Positions 702-9,582 of a stretch of 11,175 nucleotides of DNA are shown here, piece by piece. This DNA comes from SAR324 cluster bacterium. GTDB lineage: Bacteria > SAR324 > JACQKK01. Where the stretch lies: assembly GCA_027296185.1 (NCBI GenBank), contig JAPUJL010000486.1:1-11175 (forward strand), given 5' to 3'. A model generated the notes under the pieces. The model was given only the letters and a program-made list of their open reading frames with translations, was not told the origin of the DNA and ran no database searches. Numbering within the stretch: position 1 is the first letter of the stretch; every line of letters begins with the position of its first letter. A program made the position numbers and the translations under genes.

Positions 702-787
702 GACCTCACCCCCTCGTTTCCCATCTCCCACGGGAGAGGGGGATGCCCGGCGGCATGGAGCCAGGCGGGAGTGAGGGACCTCACCCC
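702..787. repeat. Nested inverted/direct repeat between convergent genes (CCTCACCCC type)
   Basis: GACCTCACCCC occurs twice, at 702-712 and 777-787. Between the copies lies a hairpin, TCTCCC (724-729) with GGGAGA (732-737). An outer pair is formed by CCTCAC (704-709) and GTGAGG (771-776). This resembles the CCTCACCCC...CTCTCCC..GGGAGAGGGG intergenic repeats scattered through many proteobacterial genomes. It sits between the convergent 3' ends of the exported-protein gene and tgt, and may end transcription from both sides. The right-hand copy contains the tgt stop codon (781-783). Confidence 0.6.
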
Positions 788-1908
788 ACCCGCCGGCGCT
801 TTTTGCCTTCCCGCAAGTAGCGCTCCAAAAACTCCGCTTTGAAGGCGGGAAAGCGATCGCCGCGGATGGCCTGGCGGATGTCCGCCATGAGGTTCATGTA
901 GAACGCAATGTTGTGAATCGTGGCAAGGGTCTGGCCGAAGATCTCGCCAGCGTGAAACAGGTGGTGCAGGTAGGCCCGCGTGTAGTTTTCGCAGGTGTAG
1001 CAGCGGCAGGCGGTATCGGGGGGAAAACGGTCCTTGCGGTAGTCGTTGTTCATCACCCGCAGCCGGCCCACCTGGGTGAATATGACCCCGGTGCGGGCGT
1101 ACTTGGTGGGAATCACGCAGTCGCTCATGTCGATCCCCAGTTCCACCGCCGCGAGGATATCCTCCGGCAGGCCGACGCCCATCAGATAGCGGGGCCGGTC
1201 CTCCGGCAGGTGGGGCACGGTGAACGCCAGCACCTCGCGCATGGTATCGAGTCCCTCGCCCACGCTGAGCCCCCCCACGGCGATCCCGGACAGCTCCAAC
1301 TCGGCGATTCGCTCCGCGCACTCCCGGCGTAAATCCGGGTAGGTGCTGCCCTGGACGATGCCGAACAGCGCCTGCTCCGGGTTGGTCCAGGATTCCCGGC
1401 ACCGTCGCGCCCAGTCCACGGTGCGTTCCATGGCGGTCTTGGCGGCTTCGTAGGGGGCGGGATAGGAGACGCACTCGTCGAAGGCCATCATGACGTCGGC
1501 ACCCAGCTTCTGCTGAATGGCGATCGCCTTCTCGGGCGTGAGTTCCACGGGTTGCCCCCCTTTCTCCATGCGGAAGCGCACCCCAGCGTCGTCCACCTGC
1601 ACGTTGGGCAGGGAGAACACCTGATACCCGCCGCTGTCGGTGATGATCGGGTGGGGCCAGTTCATGAAGCGGTGCAGCCCGCCCTGAGCCGCGACGATCT
1701 CCTCCCCTGGCCGGAGGTGGAGGTGATAGGCGTTGGCCAGCAGGATGCGGGCGCCGGACTCGGCCACCTGCTCCGGCGTAGCGGATTTCACCGTGGCCTG
1801 CGTGCCCACCGGCATGAAGGTGGGGGTTTCCACGTCGCCCCGTGGGGTGGAGAGCAGCCCCAGGCGCGCGGCGCAACCCGCATCGGTTTTCAGCAGTTCG
1901 AATTGCAC
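781..1908 (-). CDS. tgt: Queuine/preQ1 tRNA-ribosyltransferase (tRNA-guanine transglycosylase)
   Basis: Tgt replaces guanine-34 of GUN-anticodon tRNAs (Asp, Asn, His, Tyr) with preQ1, the committed step of queuosine modification in the cytoplasm. The 375 residues match the bacterial family in length. Visible landmarks are FMPVGT (31-36), TDSGGYQVFSL with the general acid D91, FDEC (143-146), GIVQG (183-187), the presumed nucleophile D263 in SDCVIPT, and the zinc site C301-x-C303-x2-C306 with H332. The D263 to C301 spacing of 38 equals that of the Zymomonas enzyme (280 to 318). The start codon is GTG, and residues 2-5 (QFEL) fit the usual N-terminus; no strong Shine-Dalgarno is visible. The nucleophile region reads PTKYARTG rather than the PTRNARNG of E. 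coli-type enzymes. It lies 45 nt after the zinc-ribbon gene and away from queA, yajC and secDF, so the locus is not the usual one. Confidence 0.97.
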   Translation of the reverse strand: MQFELLKTDAGCAARLGLLSTPRGDVETPTFMPVGTQATVKSATPEQVAESGARILLANAYHLHLRPGEEIVAAQGGLHRFMNWPHPIITDSGGYQVFSLPNVQVDDAGVRFRMEKGGQPVELTPEKAIAIQQKLGADVMMAFDECVSYPAPYEAAKTAMERTVDWARRCRESWTNPEQALFGIVQGSTYPDLRRECAERIAELELSGIAVGGLSVGEGLDTMREVLAFTVPHLPEDRPRYLMGVGLPEDILAAVELGIDMSDCVIPTKYARTGVIFTQVGRLRVMNNDYRKDRFPPDTACRCYTCENYTRAYLHHLFHAGEIFGQTLATIHNIAFYMNLMADIRQAIRGDRFPAFKAEFLERYLREGKKRRRVG

Positions 1909-1953: not shown

Positions 1954-2475
1954 CTACGGTTCGTCCTTGTCCTCGAATCGTTTGGCGGGGTCGTGGAGGG
2001 CCTGCGACACCAGCAGCCCCAAAGCGTCCATCTCGGCCACGGGCAGCCGCTTGAGCACCCCGTCGTCGATGGGATAGGGCTCGGCGGGCTGGCCGGCGAT
2101 GGATTCCAGGCGGCGCCGGTATTCCAGGTAGCGCTGCCGCTGCTGATCCAGGTACTCCGACAGGGCGTCGATGCGCCGCAAATTGATTTCCGCGACCGTC
2201 GCCTCGGCCCGCGCATCGATCTCCACGGCGGCTTCCCGCACCACCGCGCCGCACTTGTGGCGGCGGCCGCCGGGGACTTCGATCTCGCTGTATTCAAGGG
2301 TGTCACAGGCCGGGCAGTGGAGCCAGATCAGTTTGCCGGGGAGCGGACCCGCCGCCTCCGCCTGCTTCGAATCGGGGGTGGCCTCGCCGTCTCCGGCAGG
2401 GCCGGGTTCCGCCCGTTCGGATCGACGCCGCACCCGGCGGGCCTCCAATGAGATGACGTTGTCGTCGTCGGCCAT
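1954..2475 (-). CDS. Hypothetical zinc-ribbon-like protein upstream of tgt
   Basis: This encodes 173 residues from ATG 2475. Residues 1-48 are charged and low in hydrophobicity, probably disordered. A likely metal site follows: H53-C54-x2-C57, then H73-x-C75, resembling a treble-clef or rubredoxin-like knuckle with one Cys replaced. Residues 80-126 are rich in Glu, Arg, Ala and Leu and could form a long helix or coiled coil. The acidic tail ends in EDKDEP. There is no signal peptide or membrane segment, so it is probably cytoplasmic. I do not recognise the family. The stop is 45 nt before the GTG of tgt on the same strand, which suggests co-transcription; a role in nucleic-acid or tRNA handling would be inference from position and zinc site only. 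A weak GCGGA lies upstream of the ATG. Confidence 0.75.
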   Translation of the reverse strand: MADDDNVISLEARRVRRRSERAEPGPAGDGEATPDSKQAEAAGPLPGKLIWLHCPACDTLEYSEIEVPGGRRHKCGAVVREAAVEIDARAEATVAEINLRRIDALSEYLDQQRQRYLEYRRRLESIAGQPAEPYPIDDGVLKRLPVAEMDALGLLVSQALHDPAKRFEDKDEP

Positions 2476-2500
2476 GGTTTCCGCTGAAATGCGCGCGGCG

Positions 2501-2523
2501 GTCAGTAGAGCGGCCAGTAGAGC
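2501..2523. repeat. Two-copy 12-bp tandem repeat
   Basis: CAGTAGAGC occurs at 2503-2511 and again at 2515-2523 with period 12; the full unit is GGYCAGTAGAGC. It lies 26 bp upstream of the ATG of the zinc-ribbon gene, within the divergent region. It could be a tandem operator or just a small local duplication. Confidence 0.5.
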
Positions 2524-2597
2524 CGCCGGCAGGGCCTCCCGCGCCGCGTGAAGGAAAAGCGGACGGCCGCCATCGCGGGGGACGCCGCCGGTCCCGA

Positions 2598-2653
2598 TTG
2601 CATCTCGGCCGCGAGTCCGCTATGTCTTAGGGTATCCCTTCCAAGGAAGGAAT
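2598..2653 (+). promoter_or_regulatory. Dyad and weak promoter candidate upstream of the STAND gene
   Basis: An inverted repeat, CCTTCC (2637-2642) AA GGAAGG (2645-2650), extends to 9-base arms with one mismatch (2634-2653). Just upstream, TTGCAT (2598-2603) and TATGTC (2621-2626) are 17 bp apart, but the -10 match is poor. If this is the promoter, the dyad would cover the transcription start, the usual place for a repressor site. The region is divergent, so the dyad could equally serve the zinc-ribbon/tgt operon. The dyad is seen directly; its function is inferred. Confidence 0.3.
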
Positions 2654-2741
2654 CCGCCCACCTCGGGCCGAGCCGCCCCCGCCTGACGGGGAATGGCGCG
2701 CCGGGAGGCGGCGGGGTTTACACCCGTGGGAATACCAGTTG

Positions 2742-5700
2742 ATGGCCAATCTCGTCAAACTCTACGGCGACAAGGCCGAGCTTCCTCACCTTTCCCTGCG
2801 CTATCCGGTCGCGCCGCCCGAAGGCGCATTACTTCGTGCGCTGGAGGCCTACCGGGATCTGAAGCTGGACTTTCGCGCCCAGTCGCGGCCCCTCGGCCAG
2901 CGGCGGGAGGTGACGCGGTTTCTGCGGCAGTTCGGGACCTTGCTCCACCGCACGCTGTTTCCAGGGGACACGGCGCTACGGCTCGCGGCGGGGCGGCCGC
3001 TGCTGCTGGCCACCGACCGCCGGTGGGGCGCCTACCCCTGGGAGCTCCTCCACGACGGGGAGCGCTGGCTGGCCTTGCAGCAGGGCGTGGTGCGCTGGTA
3101 TCCCGAGGCCGGGCCGGAAGCCCGGCAGGCATCCGCTGCCCGTGGCGCCCCGCGCATCCTGGCCGTGACCGCCCAGCCCCTGCCCCGCACCCCGGGGGAA
3201 TGGCTGACCACTCGCTACGAGGCCCTGGGCAGCCGGTTCGTTTCGGTGGTGGCGGATGCTCTCGACACCCCCTACGGAGGCAAGCGCGACCCTGCCGGCC
3301 GGGTGTTGGAGCACGCCGGCCTGGCGGAATTCGAGGAGAACCTGGGCGAACCCTGGGATATCCTGCTGTGGTCGGGCTACGCCTCCGGGGAGGAATGGCT
3401 CTTCGAGACTCCCTCGCTCGATGCGGAGTCCGCGCCCGCGGCCCGTATCGCCGAAGGCCTGCGCCGGGCGGTGGGGCAAGGCCTTTCCGTGTTGGTGCTC
3501 AACGATTCCCTGGGCCTCACCGACTCGGGAGCCGCCACGGAACAGGCCGGCCGCTGGCTGGGCACCGGACTGCCGTGGCTGATCCGCGTGGAGGGGCTGG
3601 AGGCGCGGATCCGCGAGCAGGATTATCTGCGCACCCTGGCGCGCCACATGGGCCAGGGGCTCTCCCCCTTCGAAAGCCACCTGTCGGCGGTGCGCCGGCT
3701 GCACCGCCGGTTCGAAGAGGGGTGGGACTGGAGCTACTTCCGACTGCACGCCGGCCGCCAAGCGCCCACCATCGGCGCGGCGCCCGCGCGGCCCACCCGC
3801 GCGCCGGAGGTGCCCCGGCCGCTCGGGCACCCGGCGTTCCGCCTCCGGCGTGGCGCCCCATCGGGGCGCGGCGCGCCACCCGCGCCTCCTTCTGCCGCGC
3901 CGCCGGTGTTCCGCCCCCGCCGCCGGGTTTTTGCGCGGCATGAGGAGCTGCGGGCCCTGGCGCGGGGCCTCGTTCCGCCGCAGCAGCCCAGCTCCCCGTT
4001 CGTGTTCCTCACCGGCGGCCCGGGCAGCGGCAAGACCGTGCTCGCCATCGATATCGCCAACCGCCTGCACCGGCAGTTCGACGAGGTCATCTACCTGAAC
4101 GGGCGCGGCGTGCTGCCCGAAACGGTGGCCCCGGCGGATACCATCGCCACGCCCGGAACGGGCCTGGGCGGGGCGGGACGGCTGCTCGAGGCCCTCGCCG
4201 GTTACCTGGGGCCCGATCCGGCGGAAGATGGAGGCGGCGCTCCCGCGCCTTGGCCGCCGGCGCTGAAGGAGCGCCTGGAGGACGGCCGGCGCCGCCTGAT
4301 CGTGCTCGATGGGCTGGACGGCAGCCCGGGTTACGACGAGCTGTTGCCACTGCTGCAGGGCCTGCCGCCGGCCTGCCGCGTGCTGTTGGCCAGCCGGAGC
4401 AGGGCGCCGTTGCTGCCGGGCTTCCGGGTGGATTTGGAGCCGCTGGAGCCCGCGGCCCTGGCGGAGATCTACGGTGAGGAACTGGAGCACCGGCTTCAGG
4501 CTCATCCCCTGGGAGACCGGCTGATGGCCATTTGCCGGAGCGACCTGCTACTGGCCCGGCTTCTGCGGCGCTTGCCCCACTGGCCCGGCAGCGGCGACGT
4601 CGCCGCCGCCATCGACGGAGATGACGGCGGAGGAGTAGGCGCGTCCCGCACGACGCCGGCGCTGCTCGAGTTGATTGCGGCCCAGGCGCTCGAGGCTCTG
4701 AGCGATCCGCCGCGGCGAGTGTTGGCGGCGTTGCTGTCGCTCACGGGGATGGTGCACCGGGAGACCCTCGCCCGCACCGCCGGCATCGAGGGCCGGCCTC
4801 TGCAGCAGGCCTTGACCGAATTGCAGTGGTTCGGGCTGACTGACGCCCACGGCGGAGAGCGCTACTACTCCCTGCATCGCCGCCTGCAGCGGGCCCTGGG
4901 GGCGAGGGTGGTCACCCGTGCTGTGTACCAGGAGCTCGCGCCGCGGCTGGTGGCGGCCTACCGCTCCTACCTGGCGGGCGTGGGCGAGGCGCTCTCCCGG
5001 GCTCCGCGGTCTTCCGCCTGGTACGCCGGCGAACGGGCGCTCGCGTGGCGCGCCACATGGCGGGACCGCCGCAACGGGGCCGAGCCAGGCGACCTGCACC
5101 GGCTGGGCGTCGAGCGCATCAATCTGGCCGAACTGGGCACCATGCTCGCCGAGGAGTCCGATCTGGCCGGTCTGACCCGAATCGTGGACGAGGCGAGGCC
5201 GCTTGCCGAACTGCCCTGGCTGGCCGAGCTCAGCACGAGCCTGGGCGCCAATCTCCTGGCCGTCGGACGCCGGCACGGCGACGAGGTGGCGCAGGCTCGG
5301 GCACTCAACCGCATCGGCGCCGCATCCCTCGCCACGGGCGACGCCCAGGGCGCGGTGCCCCCGCTGGTACGGGCGCTGGAGCGGATCAGCCATCATCGAG
5401 GCTGGGACACGCTCTCCGAGACCTATCTGCTGCTCAGCCGCTGCTACCAGCAACTCGATCGGCTCGACCCCGCCGAGAACCTGCTCAATTCGGCGATCGA
5501 GCTGGGCTATCAACTGGGCGACGGCAATCTGCTCGTCGCGGCGCTGGACTCCCTGGCGCTGATATGGAGGCGGCGGAGCACGCACCAGGAACAAGCCGGG
5601 CAGGTGTTGCCCCGTGCCGTGGCGTTCCTCGAGAGCCGGCAGCAGCGGCACCAGGCGGCCCGGGTGCGCCGGCTACTGGCCGATTGCCGGGCCGAAGAGC

Positions 5701-6137
5701 GGGACCCGGAGGAGACCGAGGAGGATTACCGGGAGACCGTCCGCGCCTTTCTCGACGCCGGTGACCGGCGCGAGGCCGGGCTCACCCGCCTGAGCCTCGC
5801 CGAATGCCTGCTCCGGGGCGCCCGGCCCGGCCTGGCGTTGCGCGAGGTGCGCGAGGCCGAGGCCCTGCTGGACGACGCCGGAGCGCCCGAGCCCGAACGG
5901 CAAGGGCGCACTTTGGGCCTGATCGCTCAATGGCACGAGGCCCACGGCCGGCCCGAGGAAGCGCTGGAGGGCTACCTGCGGTTACGCTCCCTCTGGGAAC
6001 GGGTGGGCGATCGGGAAGGGGTGATCGGCGTGCTGGACAGCCTGGGCGGCCTCTATTTCCAGCTGGGCCAACAGGAGCAGTCCACCCGCTGCTACGAGGA
6101 ACGCCTGCTGCTGCAGGCGGAAGCGCCCCATCGCTAG
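2742..6137 (+). CDS. STAND-type NTPase with degenerate N-terminal CHAT-like domain and TPR-like tail
   Basis: This encodes 1131 residues. Residues 1-335 look like a CHAT (caspase-like peptidase) domain: the PWELLHDG signature at 99-106, a core strand RILAVTAQP, then WDILLWSGYASGE (205-217) and LVLNDS (251-256). Family members have GHG and NAC(R/N) in the last two motifs; here Tyr213 and Ser256 occupy the expected His and Cys places, so protease activity is probably lost. Residues 340-392 are a Pro/Arg/Ala linker. The NTPase has Walker A GGPGSGKT (425-432), Walker B LIVLDGLDG (519-527) and an NB-ARC-like sensor VLLASRSR (547-554). Residues 637-720 resemble a winged helix. From about 846 to the end, helical repeats of TPR type follow. 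STAND proteins switch on by nucleotide-dependent oligomerisation after the repeats bind a ligand, so a cytoplasmic sensor or scaffold is likely. I prefer ATG 2742 to the adjacent TTG 2739; GGGA ends 10 nt upstream. It appears monocistronic. Confidence 0.9.
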   Translation: MANLVKLYGDKAELPHLSLRYPVAPPEGALLRALEAYRDLKLDFRAQSRPLGQRREVTRFLRQFGTLLHRTLFPGDTALRLAAGRPLLLATDRRWGAYPWELLHDGERWLALQQGVVRWYPEAGPEARQASAARGAPRILAVTAQPLPRTPGEWLTTRYEALGSRFVSVVADALDTPYGGKRDPAGRVLEHAGLAEFEENLGEPWDILLWSGYASGEEWLFETPSLDAESAPAARIAEGLRRAVGQGLSVLVLNDSLGLTDSGAATEQAGRWLGTGLPWLIRVEGLEARIREQDYLRTLARHMGQGLSPFESHLSAVRRLHRRFEEGWDWSYFRLHAGRQAPTIGAAPARPTRAPEVPRPLGHPAFRLRRGAPSGRGAPPAPPSAAPPVFRPRRRVFARHEELRALARGLVPPQQPSSPFVFLTGGPGSGKTVLAIDIANRLHRQFDEVIYLNGRGVLPETVAPADTIATPGTGLGGAGRLLEALAGYLGPDPAEDGGGAPAPWPPALKERLEDGRRRLIVLDGLDGSPGYDELLPLLQGLPPACRVLLASRSRAPLLPGFRVDLEPLEPAALAEIYGEELEHRLQAHPLGDRLMAICRSDLLLARLLRRLPHWPGSGDVAAAIDGDDGGGVGASRTTPALLELIAAQALEALSDPPRRVLAALLSLTGMVHRETLARTAGIEGRPLQQALTELQWFGLTDAHGGERYYSLHRRLQRALGARVVTRAVYQELAPRLVAAYRSYLAGVGEALSRAPRSSAWYAGERALAWRATWRDRRNGAEPGDLHRLGVERINLAELGTMLAEESDLAGLTRIVDEARPLAELPWLAELSTSLGANLLAVGRRHGDEVAQARALNRIGAASLATGDAQGAVPPLVRALERISHHRGWDTLSETYLLLSRCYQQLDRLDPAENLLNSAIELGYQLGDGNLLVAALDSLALIWRRRSTHQEQAGQVLPRAVAFLESRQQRHQAARVRRLLADCRAEERDPEETEEDYRETVRAFLDAGDRREAGLTRLSLAECLLRGARPGLALREVREAEALLDDAGAPEPERQGRTLGLIAQWHEAHGRPEEALEGYLRLRSLWERVGDREGVIGVLDSLGGLYFQLGQQEQSTRCYEERLLLQAEAPHR

Positions 6138-6166
6138 ACGCCACCGATCCGTCCCCTGCCGGGCGA

Positions 6167-6206
6167 CCGGCCCCGGACCGTCGATTCCGGCACGCCGGGG
6201 AACCGG
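6167..6206. terminator. Hairpin between convergent genes
   Basis: CCCCGG (6171-6176) pairs with CCGGGG (6195-6200). CCGG on each outer flank (6167-6170 and 6203-6206) can extend the stem past a 2-base bulge. It lies 30 bp after the STAND gene stop and 26 bp past the stop of the convergent membrane-protein gene. There is no T-tract on either strand, so its role as a terminator is uncertain. Confidence 0.35.
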
Positions 6207-6231
6207 CAAGCTCCGTGGCGGCCGACAGGGC

Positions 6232-6492
6232 CTAGAACATAATTTGGATCCAGCGGGTGAAGCCCGCAAGAAACATCGAGAAGAAGATCATCGTCCCCAC
6301 ATAGCCGAGGAACAAATCCCCTTCGCCCCGCCGCACTCCGAACAGGATCGTCTTGATGGAAAACTCGTCCTGGGACGCGGGGGATCCGGCACCGGAATCG
6401 GAGCGTCGCGATTCGCGGTAAAACACCATCAACCCCCCGACGGTGCCCGCGAGCACCAACCACAGCATCCAGGTGTCGGCGAGAAAGCCCAT
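6232..6492 (-). CDS. Small two-helix membrane protein of unknown function
   Basis: This encodes 86 residues. Two hydrophobic segments are clear: one about residues 7-25 (WMLWLVLAGTVGGLMVFY) and one about 58-80 (LFLGYVGTMIFFSMFLAGF). A polar loop between them, with RESRRSDSG and DEFSIKT, probably faces the cytoplasm because it is rich in Arg near the first helix. The frame is open upstream, but ATG 6492 is chosen because AAGAGA lies 7 nt before it and because this start falls 4 nt after the stop of the preceding gene on the same strand. The two genes therefore look translationally linked. I do not recognise a family; holin-like, transporter-accessory or complex-assembly roles are all possible and none is supported by a motif. 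Confidence 0.75.
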   Translation of the reverse strand: MGFLADTWMLWLVLAGTVGGLMVFYRESRRSDSGAGSPASQDEFSIKTILFGVRRGEGDLFLGYVGTMIFFSMFLAGFTRWIQIMF

Positions 6493-6496
6493 GGCC

Positions 6497-6730
6497 TCAT
6501 CTCTTGGAGCGGGAGGCGCCCATCTGAGGGCGCCCCTTGGGTGTCGGGCGGGGCGGTTCCAGCAATTTCTCCACCTTGCCCGTGTTGATGTGCCGCAAAA
6601 ACACACCGGATTGTTTTTCCTGGAACTGCGCTTGATCGATCTTCAAATAGGGGTACATCGTCTCGATCTTGCCTCGGGCTCCCTCGGAAAGGGCGTCGTA
6701 ATTGGTCCATTTGCTGGGGTCCAGACTCAT
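6497..6730 (-). CDS. Small hypothetical protein, first gene of a bicistron
   Basis: This encodes 77 residues from ATG 6730. There is no signal peptide or membrane segment. The middle is mixed polar and hydrophobic (ALSEGARGKIETMYPYLKI, residues 13-31). The last 20 residues are basic and Pro-rich, ending in RSKR, and may contact nucleic acid or the acidic face of a membrane partner. The frame is open further upstream to 6895, but that part is atypical in composition, and a sigma70-like promoter lies across its start, so the shorter form is preferred. AGG in CAGGTAACC provides a modest Shine-Dalgarno. The membrane-protein gene begins 4 nt after its stop, so the two products probably work together. 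No family is recognised. Confidence 0.7.
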   Translation of the reverse strand: MSLDPSKWTNYDALSEGARGKIETMYPYLKIDQAQFQEKQSGVFLRHINTGKVEKLLEPPRPTPKGRPQMGASRSKR

Positions 6731-7013: not shown

Positions 7014-7074
7014 TGAAATCCACGCGGGGCGCCGGGCCGCCCTTCGGGCTCTCCGGACCGCGTGCATACCCCAT

Positions 7075-7158
7075 GCCCAAGTGGCGGAACTGGCAGACGC
7101 GCATGGTTCAGGTCCATGTGGGAGCAATCCCGTGGAAGTTCGAGTCTTCTCTTGGGCA
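7075..7158 (+). tRNA. tRNA-Leu (anticodon CAG)
   Basis: The cloverleaf is complete. The acceptor arms are GCCCAAG (7075-7081) and CTTGGGC (7151-7157), with discriminator A at 7158. The D-arm contains GCGGAACTGGCAGACGC. The anticodon stem CATGG/CCATG encloses the loop TTCAGGT, putting CAG at 7109-7111, which reads CUG leucine codons. A long variable arm (GGGAGCAATCCC) is typical of class II tRNAs. The T-arm is GGAAG TTCGAGT CTTCT with one G-T pair. The 3' CCA is not encoded (TAG follows), so it must be added by tRNA nucleotidyltransferase. Confidence 0.97.
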
Positions 7159-7190
7159 TAGCGGCACCCTCTCTCTCGTAGTCGGCGGAA

Positions 7191-8324: not shown

Positions 8325-9265
8325 TTAATCGAAATTCACGCTCAGCCCCCAGCCGTGGATGTCGGTGAGCTCGACCCAGCTGGGCTTGGCCGGGAACCGG
8401 AACTCGTAGGCGATGGTATCCGACGTGCTGAGGAACACGTCCGGGACGATGGTGACCCAGCCGTAATCGAAGTCGTCCAGGGTCGCCGTGGTGCCGGCGT
8501 CGATGCCGGCGCGGCGGTTGAAGTTGATCGTGCCCCGGTTGGTGCGCAGCTCGTTCAGGTCCAGGTCCCCCGCGTGGCCTGGTAGGTCACCACGAATGGC
8601 GAGCCCGGCTGCTCGGTCAACGCGATAGCGGTATCGGTGTTTTCCCCACCCACGAAGGCGTAGGGGTGCACATGGGGGTCGAAGCCCCACTGAGCGCAAG
8701 AGCTTGCCGGATTGGCCAGCTGAAACTCCAGGGAGCAGGTGGTCTGCATGCGGATCTCGAAGTGCAGGTGGACAAATGGGGTCGAGCCGGTGGCGCCCAT
8801 GGTGGCGATTTGCGCTCCGGCCGTCACCGGGTCGTCCAGCGTCACGAGGAACGATTGCAGGTGCAGGTACACCGCGTAGATGCGGTCGATCGTCGCCCCC
8901 TGCCACTCGAAGGGCGCGGCGAGGCCGTGGCGCACGATCAGCGTGTTGCCACTGTCGGGAAACTGGGGGCTGCCCACCGGAAACAGGCCCGTGACCGTGC
9001 CGCCGCCGATGGCGAGGATCGGATCGCCCAGGCTGCCGAGGTAGTCGATGCCCCGGTGGAAATCGAAGCGGCTTTCGCTAAACTTCCAGCGCGGCCCGAA
9101 GGTACTGGAGATCGCCAGTGGGGCCTGCACCGGCGCCAGAAAGCTGTCGCTGGTGGGAATGTCCGGCCCGCGGTCCACCTCGTGGCCCGAGACGAGGATG
9201 CCCTCGTCCTCGCACCCCGCCGCCAGACAAAGCACCGCCAAGCCCAAGGCGAGCCGCCAGGGCAT
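8325..9265 (-). CDS. M23 (LytM-type) metallopeptidase lipoprotein, frameshifted near its C-terminus
   Basis: From ATG 9265 the product has a lipoprotein signal (LCLAAGC, Cys18; Glu at +2 suggests the outer membrane). The M23 domain follows: H70-x3-D74 in FHRGID and H166-L-H168 in FVHLHFE, giving zinc ligands H70, D74 and H168 and catalytic H166. Such enzymes cut peptide cross-links in peptidoglycan, and those lacking a residue act as activators; here all are present. The frame ends early at 8555 with RGTWT. One extra base in the C-run at 8567-8571 (six instead of five) would restore RGDLDLNELR and add about 80 residues of a beta-rich tail ending SVNFD at 8325. The intact product would be 313 residues. 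This is a true mutation, a sequencing error or, less likely, ribosomal slippage. ATG 9346 is in frame but would give an unusually long signal N-region. Confidence 0.85.
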
Positions 9266-9582
9266 CCTGGCTATAGAGGCCGCGCCGCGCCAAATGCAAA
9301 CGCACCGCAACGGCCAGCGATGGAAGCGGTTCCTGGGAAACGACATGGGCTGAGACGGCGGCGAAGGGTTCTGAGGGCGATCCGGTATCCGCGGGGGAGG
9401 ACCCAATCCATAAACGATCCGGGCGGCGGCCCCGTTCAATTGCCGCTCCACCCCGCCGGATTCGGCTCTGAACTTCAGGTCCGCCGATCCACCGGCGCCC
9501 ATCGGAGGGCGCGGTGCCGGTGGCATAATGGGGCACCGCACGCCGGCGCCCGCGCTTGGCCGGACGTTGCGGGGCCTCGGGC
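9266..9582. other. Gap between the REC-kinase and M23 lipoprotein genes
   Basis: These 317 bp hold no recognisable gene. A hairpin near the kinase stop is listed separately. On the minus strand TTGCAT (9299-9294) and TATAGC (9275-9270), 18 bp apart, form a weak promoter so close to ATG 9265 that the mRNA would be nearly leaderless. Open frames pass through, but without family signatures. Confidence 0.45.
9511..9539 (-). terminator. Hairpin after the REC-kinase gene
   Basis: GCGGTGCC (9511-9518) and GGCACCGC (9532-9539) are perfect 8-base arms around a 13-base loop, 43 bp past the kinase stop codon. There is no U-tract in the minus-strand transcript, so this may be an mRNA-end stabilising hairpin or a non-classical terminator. 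Confidence 0.45.

Follow-up and report, generated by a model that had tools for sequence, protein, structure and literature searches.

The gene at positions 2742..6137 (+) of the window, that is, the whole 11,175-nucleotide stretch analyzed here, encodes a protein of 1131 residues with a pseudo-CHAT head, a STAND-type NTPase, and a TPR tail. We consider it probable that this is an NLR-like protein that has lost its proteolytic effector, is inherited vertically, and has been domesticated as a scaffold or regulator. The original prediction had read the gene as encoding an effector-bearing protein of antiphage defense or cell death. The catalytic dyad of the effector is lost in the protein family, and the gene is passed on as core in two SAR324 families, among housekeeping neighbors; taken together, these features leave the defense reading unsupported, and a role in antiphage defense is unlikely. 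The window is an entire contig of a 2.7 Mb MAG (73.6% complete, 547 contigs).

The frame stays open over 1131 codons, and its start was placed at the ATG at 2742 because M1 is present in at least 90% of 30 aligned sequences. A promoter scan of positions 2400–6400 found none. Both genes flanking the target within the window lie on the opposite strand, in agreement with the earlier view that the gene stands alone and has no codirectional partner. The motifs PWELLHDG (residues 99–106), GGPGSGKT (425–432), and LIVLDGLDG (519–527), from which the domains had first been read, lie where the original prediction put them. The protein (all coordinates on the + strand) begins with an N-terminal region and a degenerate CHAT (caspase-fold type) head (2742..3776, residues 1–345), followed by a weakly conserved linker of approximate limits (3777..3911, residues 346–390), an AAA_16/NACHT-like P-loop NTPase core (3912..4421, residues 391–560) with Walker A at residues 425–432 and Walker B reaching to Asp523, a possible winged-helix region (4422..4901, residues 561–720), and a TPR tail with a conserved C-terminal repeat (5262..6134, residues 841–1131). 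In a general Pfam scan, TPR_12 matched the C terminus (best stretch 1056–1121) and, in the middle of the protein, NACHT scored just over and AAA_16 just under the cut-off; no match was listed for residues 1–390. From the domain order proposed earlier, the CHAT-type head, the P-loop STAND-type NTPase, and the TPR tail are borne out by profiles, and the winged helix comes down to a single weak match below the cut-off (DprA_WH, residues 646–705, E 0.097).

Throughout, f1 denotes the SAR324 family to which the window belongs, and f2, f3, and f4 denote other families. When 5.8 billion proteins were searched, with 8000 candidates scored, 29 homologues of the window protein were returned with 35–49% identity and 96–100% query coverage, followed by a cliff; these near full-length homologues rule out a chance GC-rich open reading frame. 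Those that carry an organism name are labeled SAR324, Lambdaproteobacteria, Deltaproteobacteria, or merely “bacterium,” and JACZVE010000038.1, from a SAR324 MAG, is among the f1 loci. The same kind of search with an f4 member as query yielded 41 proteins (8000 candidates scored). The family sequences compared below number 70, namely 30 of f1 type (the window protein and its 29 homologues) and 40 of f4 type, a 749-residue partial f4 match being excluded. Alignment of the two types by hhalign spans their full length (1013 columns, probability 100, E 1.9e-58), and their heads alone match with E 9e-51; the middle part alone gives a weaker match (probability 71, E 3.6e-5). Full-length relatives of the f1 and f4 types only were found in three protein searches, in each of which 8000 candidates were scored and distant relatives may be missed. 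In a profile search that included f4 in the query, the best 120 of 161 matches contained no f4 member, and, wherever coverage was given, matches other than f1 type extended over no more than 26% of the window protein, with the exception of one partial SAR324 protein (52%). Among the matches listed in PDB sequence searches (in one of them the best 60 of 250), almost all were to TPR or P-loop proteins and none was to the head. The protein family was found here only in SAR324 bacteria.

Compared directly with the window protein, Pfam CHAT (PF12770) stays below the cut-off (16.2 versus 24 bits), and a narrow CHAT reference set gave a negative result for the head (probability 1–2%, E 0.03–0.04). 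With a CHAT profile built from 33 sequences (17 retained and 16 new), profile–profile comparison matched both the f1 head (E 2e-11) and the f4 head (E 4.7e-12). Removal of the closest relative, L080, left E values of 1.6e-10 (f1) and 6.5e-10 (f4), and the controls gave 0.13–0.85 for reversed heads and 0.30–0.58 for six column shuffles. When seven STAND-linked CHATs were removed (26 sequences left), the local match fell to 1.2e-3 (f1) and 5.2e-5 (f4), which indicates that the head is closest to the CHAT–STAND–TPR type. The homology to CHAT that was originally suggested from motifs is thus confirmed at the level of profiles; the fold is a putative one, assigned by profile comparison. Identity between the f1 and f4 types is highest in the head (24.9%), followed by the C terminus (20.6%), the NTPase, middle, and TPR regions (15–16%), and the linker (11.8%). 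With the head in first place, the pattern speaks for constraint and against decay, although within f1 the C terminus matches the head in conservation (46.2 versus 45.8%), which counts against the proposed reading.

In the window protein, Tyr213 aligns with the catalytic His and Ser256 with the catalytic Cys of active relatives, which have both dyad residues in 5/5 cases; two alignments are concordant on the residues at the two positions. None of the 70 family sequences has Cys at the nucleophile position, which is occupied by Ser in 65, Ala in three, and Asp in two (f1 type: 28 Ser and 2 Ala of 30; f4 type: 37 Ser, 2 Asp, and 1 Ala of 40). The His position of the f1 type holds no His (0/30; 23 Phe, 5 Tyr, 1 Met, and 1 Leu). 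In the f4 type, 15 of 40 sequences have His; the next residue is Glu in 13 of them and Asp in two, whereas it is Gly in the active relatives. In the single f3 member, the Cys position is a gap, the His position is Tyr, and the P-loop is missing. Based on these alignments, the family lacks the catalytic His–Cys dyad of CHAT (PF12770), and its head is predicted to be without proteolytic activity; residual chemistry may persist in the 15 f4 sequences with a His at the dyad position. In a study of Craspase, mutation of C627 to Ser or Ala abolished the activity of its CHAT protease (PMC9729208). A literature search by title and start of abstract, with few subscription papers, returned neither a catalytically dead CHAT–STAND family nor anything on CHAT in SAR324 among the matches listed.

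All 30 f1-type sequences share Walker A (K431 and T432) and Walker B (D523) without variation, and all 40 f4-type sequences lack both. The f1 type, including the window protein, therefore carries the Walker motifs of STAND/NLR-like NTPases. The P-loop is retained in f1 and lost both in f4 (0/40), where the gene is nevertheless retained, and in the single f3 member. STAND/NLR-like NTPases have a GxP motif after the core. Within residues 561–720, the GHPL of the active relatives L080 and L086 corresponds to C..DLL in seven f1 sequences, which is a weak sign because three other active relatives also lack GHPL and have GNGR. D601 is invariant in alignment A1.

A profile of 18 heads was used to scan 52 genomes of the phylum and matched 22 of them, distributed as 9/10 in f1, 1/1 in f3, 10/10 in f4, and 2/31 in f2. 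The matches in the two f2 genomes (G028 and G031) were rejected as family members, being other CHAT proteins with mostly intact dyad motifs. One of them, G028:C81 (E 2e-27), has an intact dyad and P-loop and is the sole strong f2 match (1/31 genomes); the remaining f2 matches, with E values from 3e-6 to 7e-3, represent CHAT proteins with His–Gly by motif and a Cys motif in all but G031:C15. In the f1 genome with no match, G002 (80% complete), a receiver/histidine kinase gene occupies the slot, and the two small convergent genes described below are kept. Distances between target proteins follow those between RpoB proteins (Mantel r 0.937) in the 16 genomes, of 20 searched, that had usable RpoB and target sequences. 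Within f4 the correlation is 0.863 (n = 10), and within f1 it is modest (r 0.447, p 0.029, n = 6). The target diverges 2.5–3 times more than RpoB (p-distance), a faster pace that a conflict gene could also show. The gene is a vertically inherited core gene of f1 and f4. No close relatives were found in a scan of viral contigs, and a viral origin was rejected on this ground.

Conserved neighbors surround the gene in f1. In the window, tgt (queuine tRNA-ribosyltransferase, 781..1908, −) is such a neighbor, being on the same contig as the target in seven of eight checkable f1 loci (the exception is G006, and the G007 contig ends too early). Between tgt and the target lies a small divergent gene (1954..2475, −; 173 residues, function unassigned, with an RNHCP match below the cut-off), whose group is present in 8/9 f1 loci with a 5′ flank. 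On the other side, two convergent small genes adjoin the target in 9/9 f1 loci with a 3′ flank; one (6232..6606, −) is membrane-like by eye and has an uncertain start, and the other (6497..6727, −) encodes a protein of 76 residues that is present in 10/10 f1 genomes and 0/42 others. A tRNA-Leu (CAG) gene (7074..7159, +) is located on the 3′ side, as in 7/9 f1 loci. Two near full-length tgt genes occur in 16 of the 20 f1 and f4 genomes; in f1, one of them adjoins the target. Elsewhere in the window (8325–9400, −), the frame of an M23 peptidase ends at 8555 and is overlapped by a frame at 8325–8906, possibly through a frameshift.

The other families have neighbors of their own, identified by Pfam with one member of each group checked. 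All 10 f4 loci have a SelB-group gene immediately upstream of the target (gap of −17 to 68 nt in nine and 246 nt in one), and a UGP-group gene follows directly in eight loci and after at least one further gene in two. The f4 loci form a codirectional run of a gene without a Pfam match (one tested; its group is in 8/10 loci), selB, the pseudo-CHAT gene, and UGP. In the single f3 genome, kdtA and the target frame share 4 nt, with a class I LysRS gene nearby. PADLOC gave no match for six of seven window neighbors; the seventh, the window histidine kinase, was matched twice in part, across the receiver and ATPase domains (E about 2e-8). With these two partial matches among seven window neighbors and housekeeping genes as the identified neighbors elsewhere, a defense island is not supported. 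Distribution and context (the latter including PADLOC on the seven window neighbors) are neither patchy nor indicative of a defense island or mobile element. A check of close homologues for variable neighborhoods and defense islands had been proposed; each family keeps its own housekeeping neighbors. A single conserved housekeeping context had been named as speaking against the original prediction, and this is largely what was found: contexts are fixed within each family and accompanied by vertical inheritance, but they are not one context across the lineage.

The active CHAT–STAND–TPR protein G028:C81 (L080/L163) is colinear with the family over 1160 alignment columns (23% identity, E 1.7e-25) and shares its order of N-terminal region, CHAT, P-loop NTPase, and TPR. 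This protein and four other aligned active relatives keep His–Gly, Cys, and the P-loop, and here the family differs. To the eye, the TPRs of G028:C81 seem recent and near-identical. We read 16 selected CHAT places, of which seven of the 10 in G028 and G031 have CHAT followed by a P-loop, compared with 0/6 from other genomes. At 30 CHAT loci, CHAT lies near the frame end with both dyad motifs (30/30), and a P-loop pattern was seen in 2/30 within the examined part. Among the CHAT places read, the CHAT-then-P-loop order with an intact dyad is thus confined to two f2 genomes, a distribution that befits an accessory type and contrasts with the core, dead family. CHAT matches above the cut-off are present in 26/31 f2 and 10/10 f4 genomes, and open frames at C-terminal CHAT loci in f2 are mostly 1125–1280 residues long; this intact C-terminal CHAT protein could belong to the SAR324 core genes in its own right.

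Bacterial NACHT/STAND antiphage proteins, such as bNACHT and Avs, resemble the family in layout, with an N-terminal domain, a STAND-type NTPase in the center, and repeats at the C terminus. Unlike them, the family is core and vertical, its effector head appears dead, and its NTPase motifs are lost in sister lineages. CHAT and TPR are also common to the family and TPR-CHAT/Csx29 of Craspase; Csx29 has an active His–Cys dyad and is the partner of a CRISPR effector (PMC9729208), whereas the family is without the dyad. Eroded NTP-binding motifs like those of f3 and f4 are described for iSTAND/iSTAND2, which belong to MoxR–vWA ternary conflict systems (PMC8195603). No MoxR–vWA system genes were identified among the neighbors examined.

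In the scaffold or regulator that we consider probable, the head would cleave no substrate. The pseudo-CHAT head and the TPR tail would serve as protein-binding surfaces, and the protein would scaffold or regulate a putative partner. An ATP switch would gate partner binding in f1, and binding would be constitutive in f3 and f4.

A rather unlikely, though tenable, alternative is a core immune or stress sensor that has kept NLR-like signaling and whose noncatalytic head recruits a separate effector. The NTPase motifs intact in f1 fit this idea, as does the proposal, made in PMC8195603, that inactive STAND modules are parts of bacterial conflict systems; the same motifs are, however, lost in f4 and f3, and the conserved neighbors identified by Pfam are housekeeping genes, several small ones being unassigned.

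An active NLR-like antiphage or cell-death protein, in which the TPR senses a phage product, the NTPase oligomerizes, and CHAT cleaves a death substrate, is improbable. Domain order, homology to active CHAT–STAND–TPR proteins, and Walker motifs invariant in all f1-type sequences would suit it, but the nucleophile Cys is missing from all 70 family sequences and the His from every f1-type sequence, the gene is core and vertical in a fixed housekeeping context, the viral contig scan found no close relatives, and the PADLOC matches of the window protein fall on the P-loop. Least probable is a serine hydrolase, in which the Ser at the Cys position (65/70) would be a working nucleophile with another base, making the head active but not a cysteine protease: His313 is invariant in alignments A1, A3, and A4 but corresponds to a place toward the C-terminal end of the head and not to the dyad His, five of the 70 sequences have Ala or Asp, the f3 member has a gap, and Cys-to-Ser exchange inactivates another CHAT protease, as PMC9729208 reports.

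Returning to domestication, we tentatively put forward the bolder and doubtful idea that a whole NLR-like receptor, after loss of the protease and, in two lineages, of the ATPase as well, became a core SAR324 scaffold, possibly tied to translation. The possible tie is suggested by the neighbors, namely tgt and tRNA-Leu in f1, a lysyl-tRNA synthetase nearby in f3, and selB in f4. An NLR-like architecture is often taken to mean defense; this family retains the layout in a vertically inherited core gene whose effector appears dead, and the intact colinear relative beside it allows a clean comparison. The family thereby calls for care in annotation and provides an example on which the domestication of immune-type machinery in bacteria can be tested.
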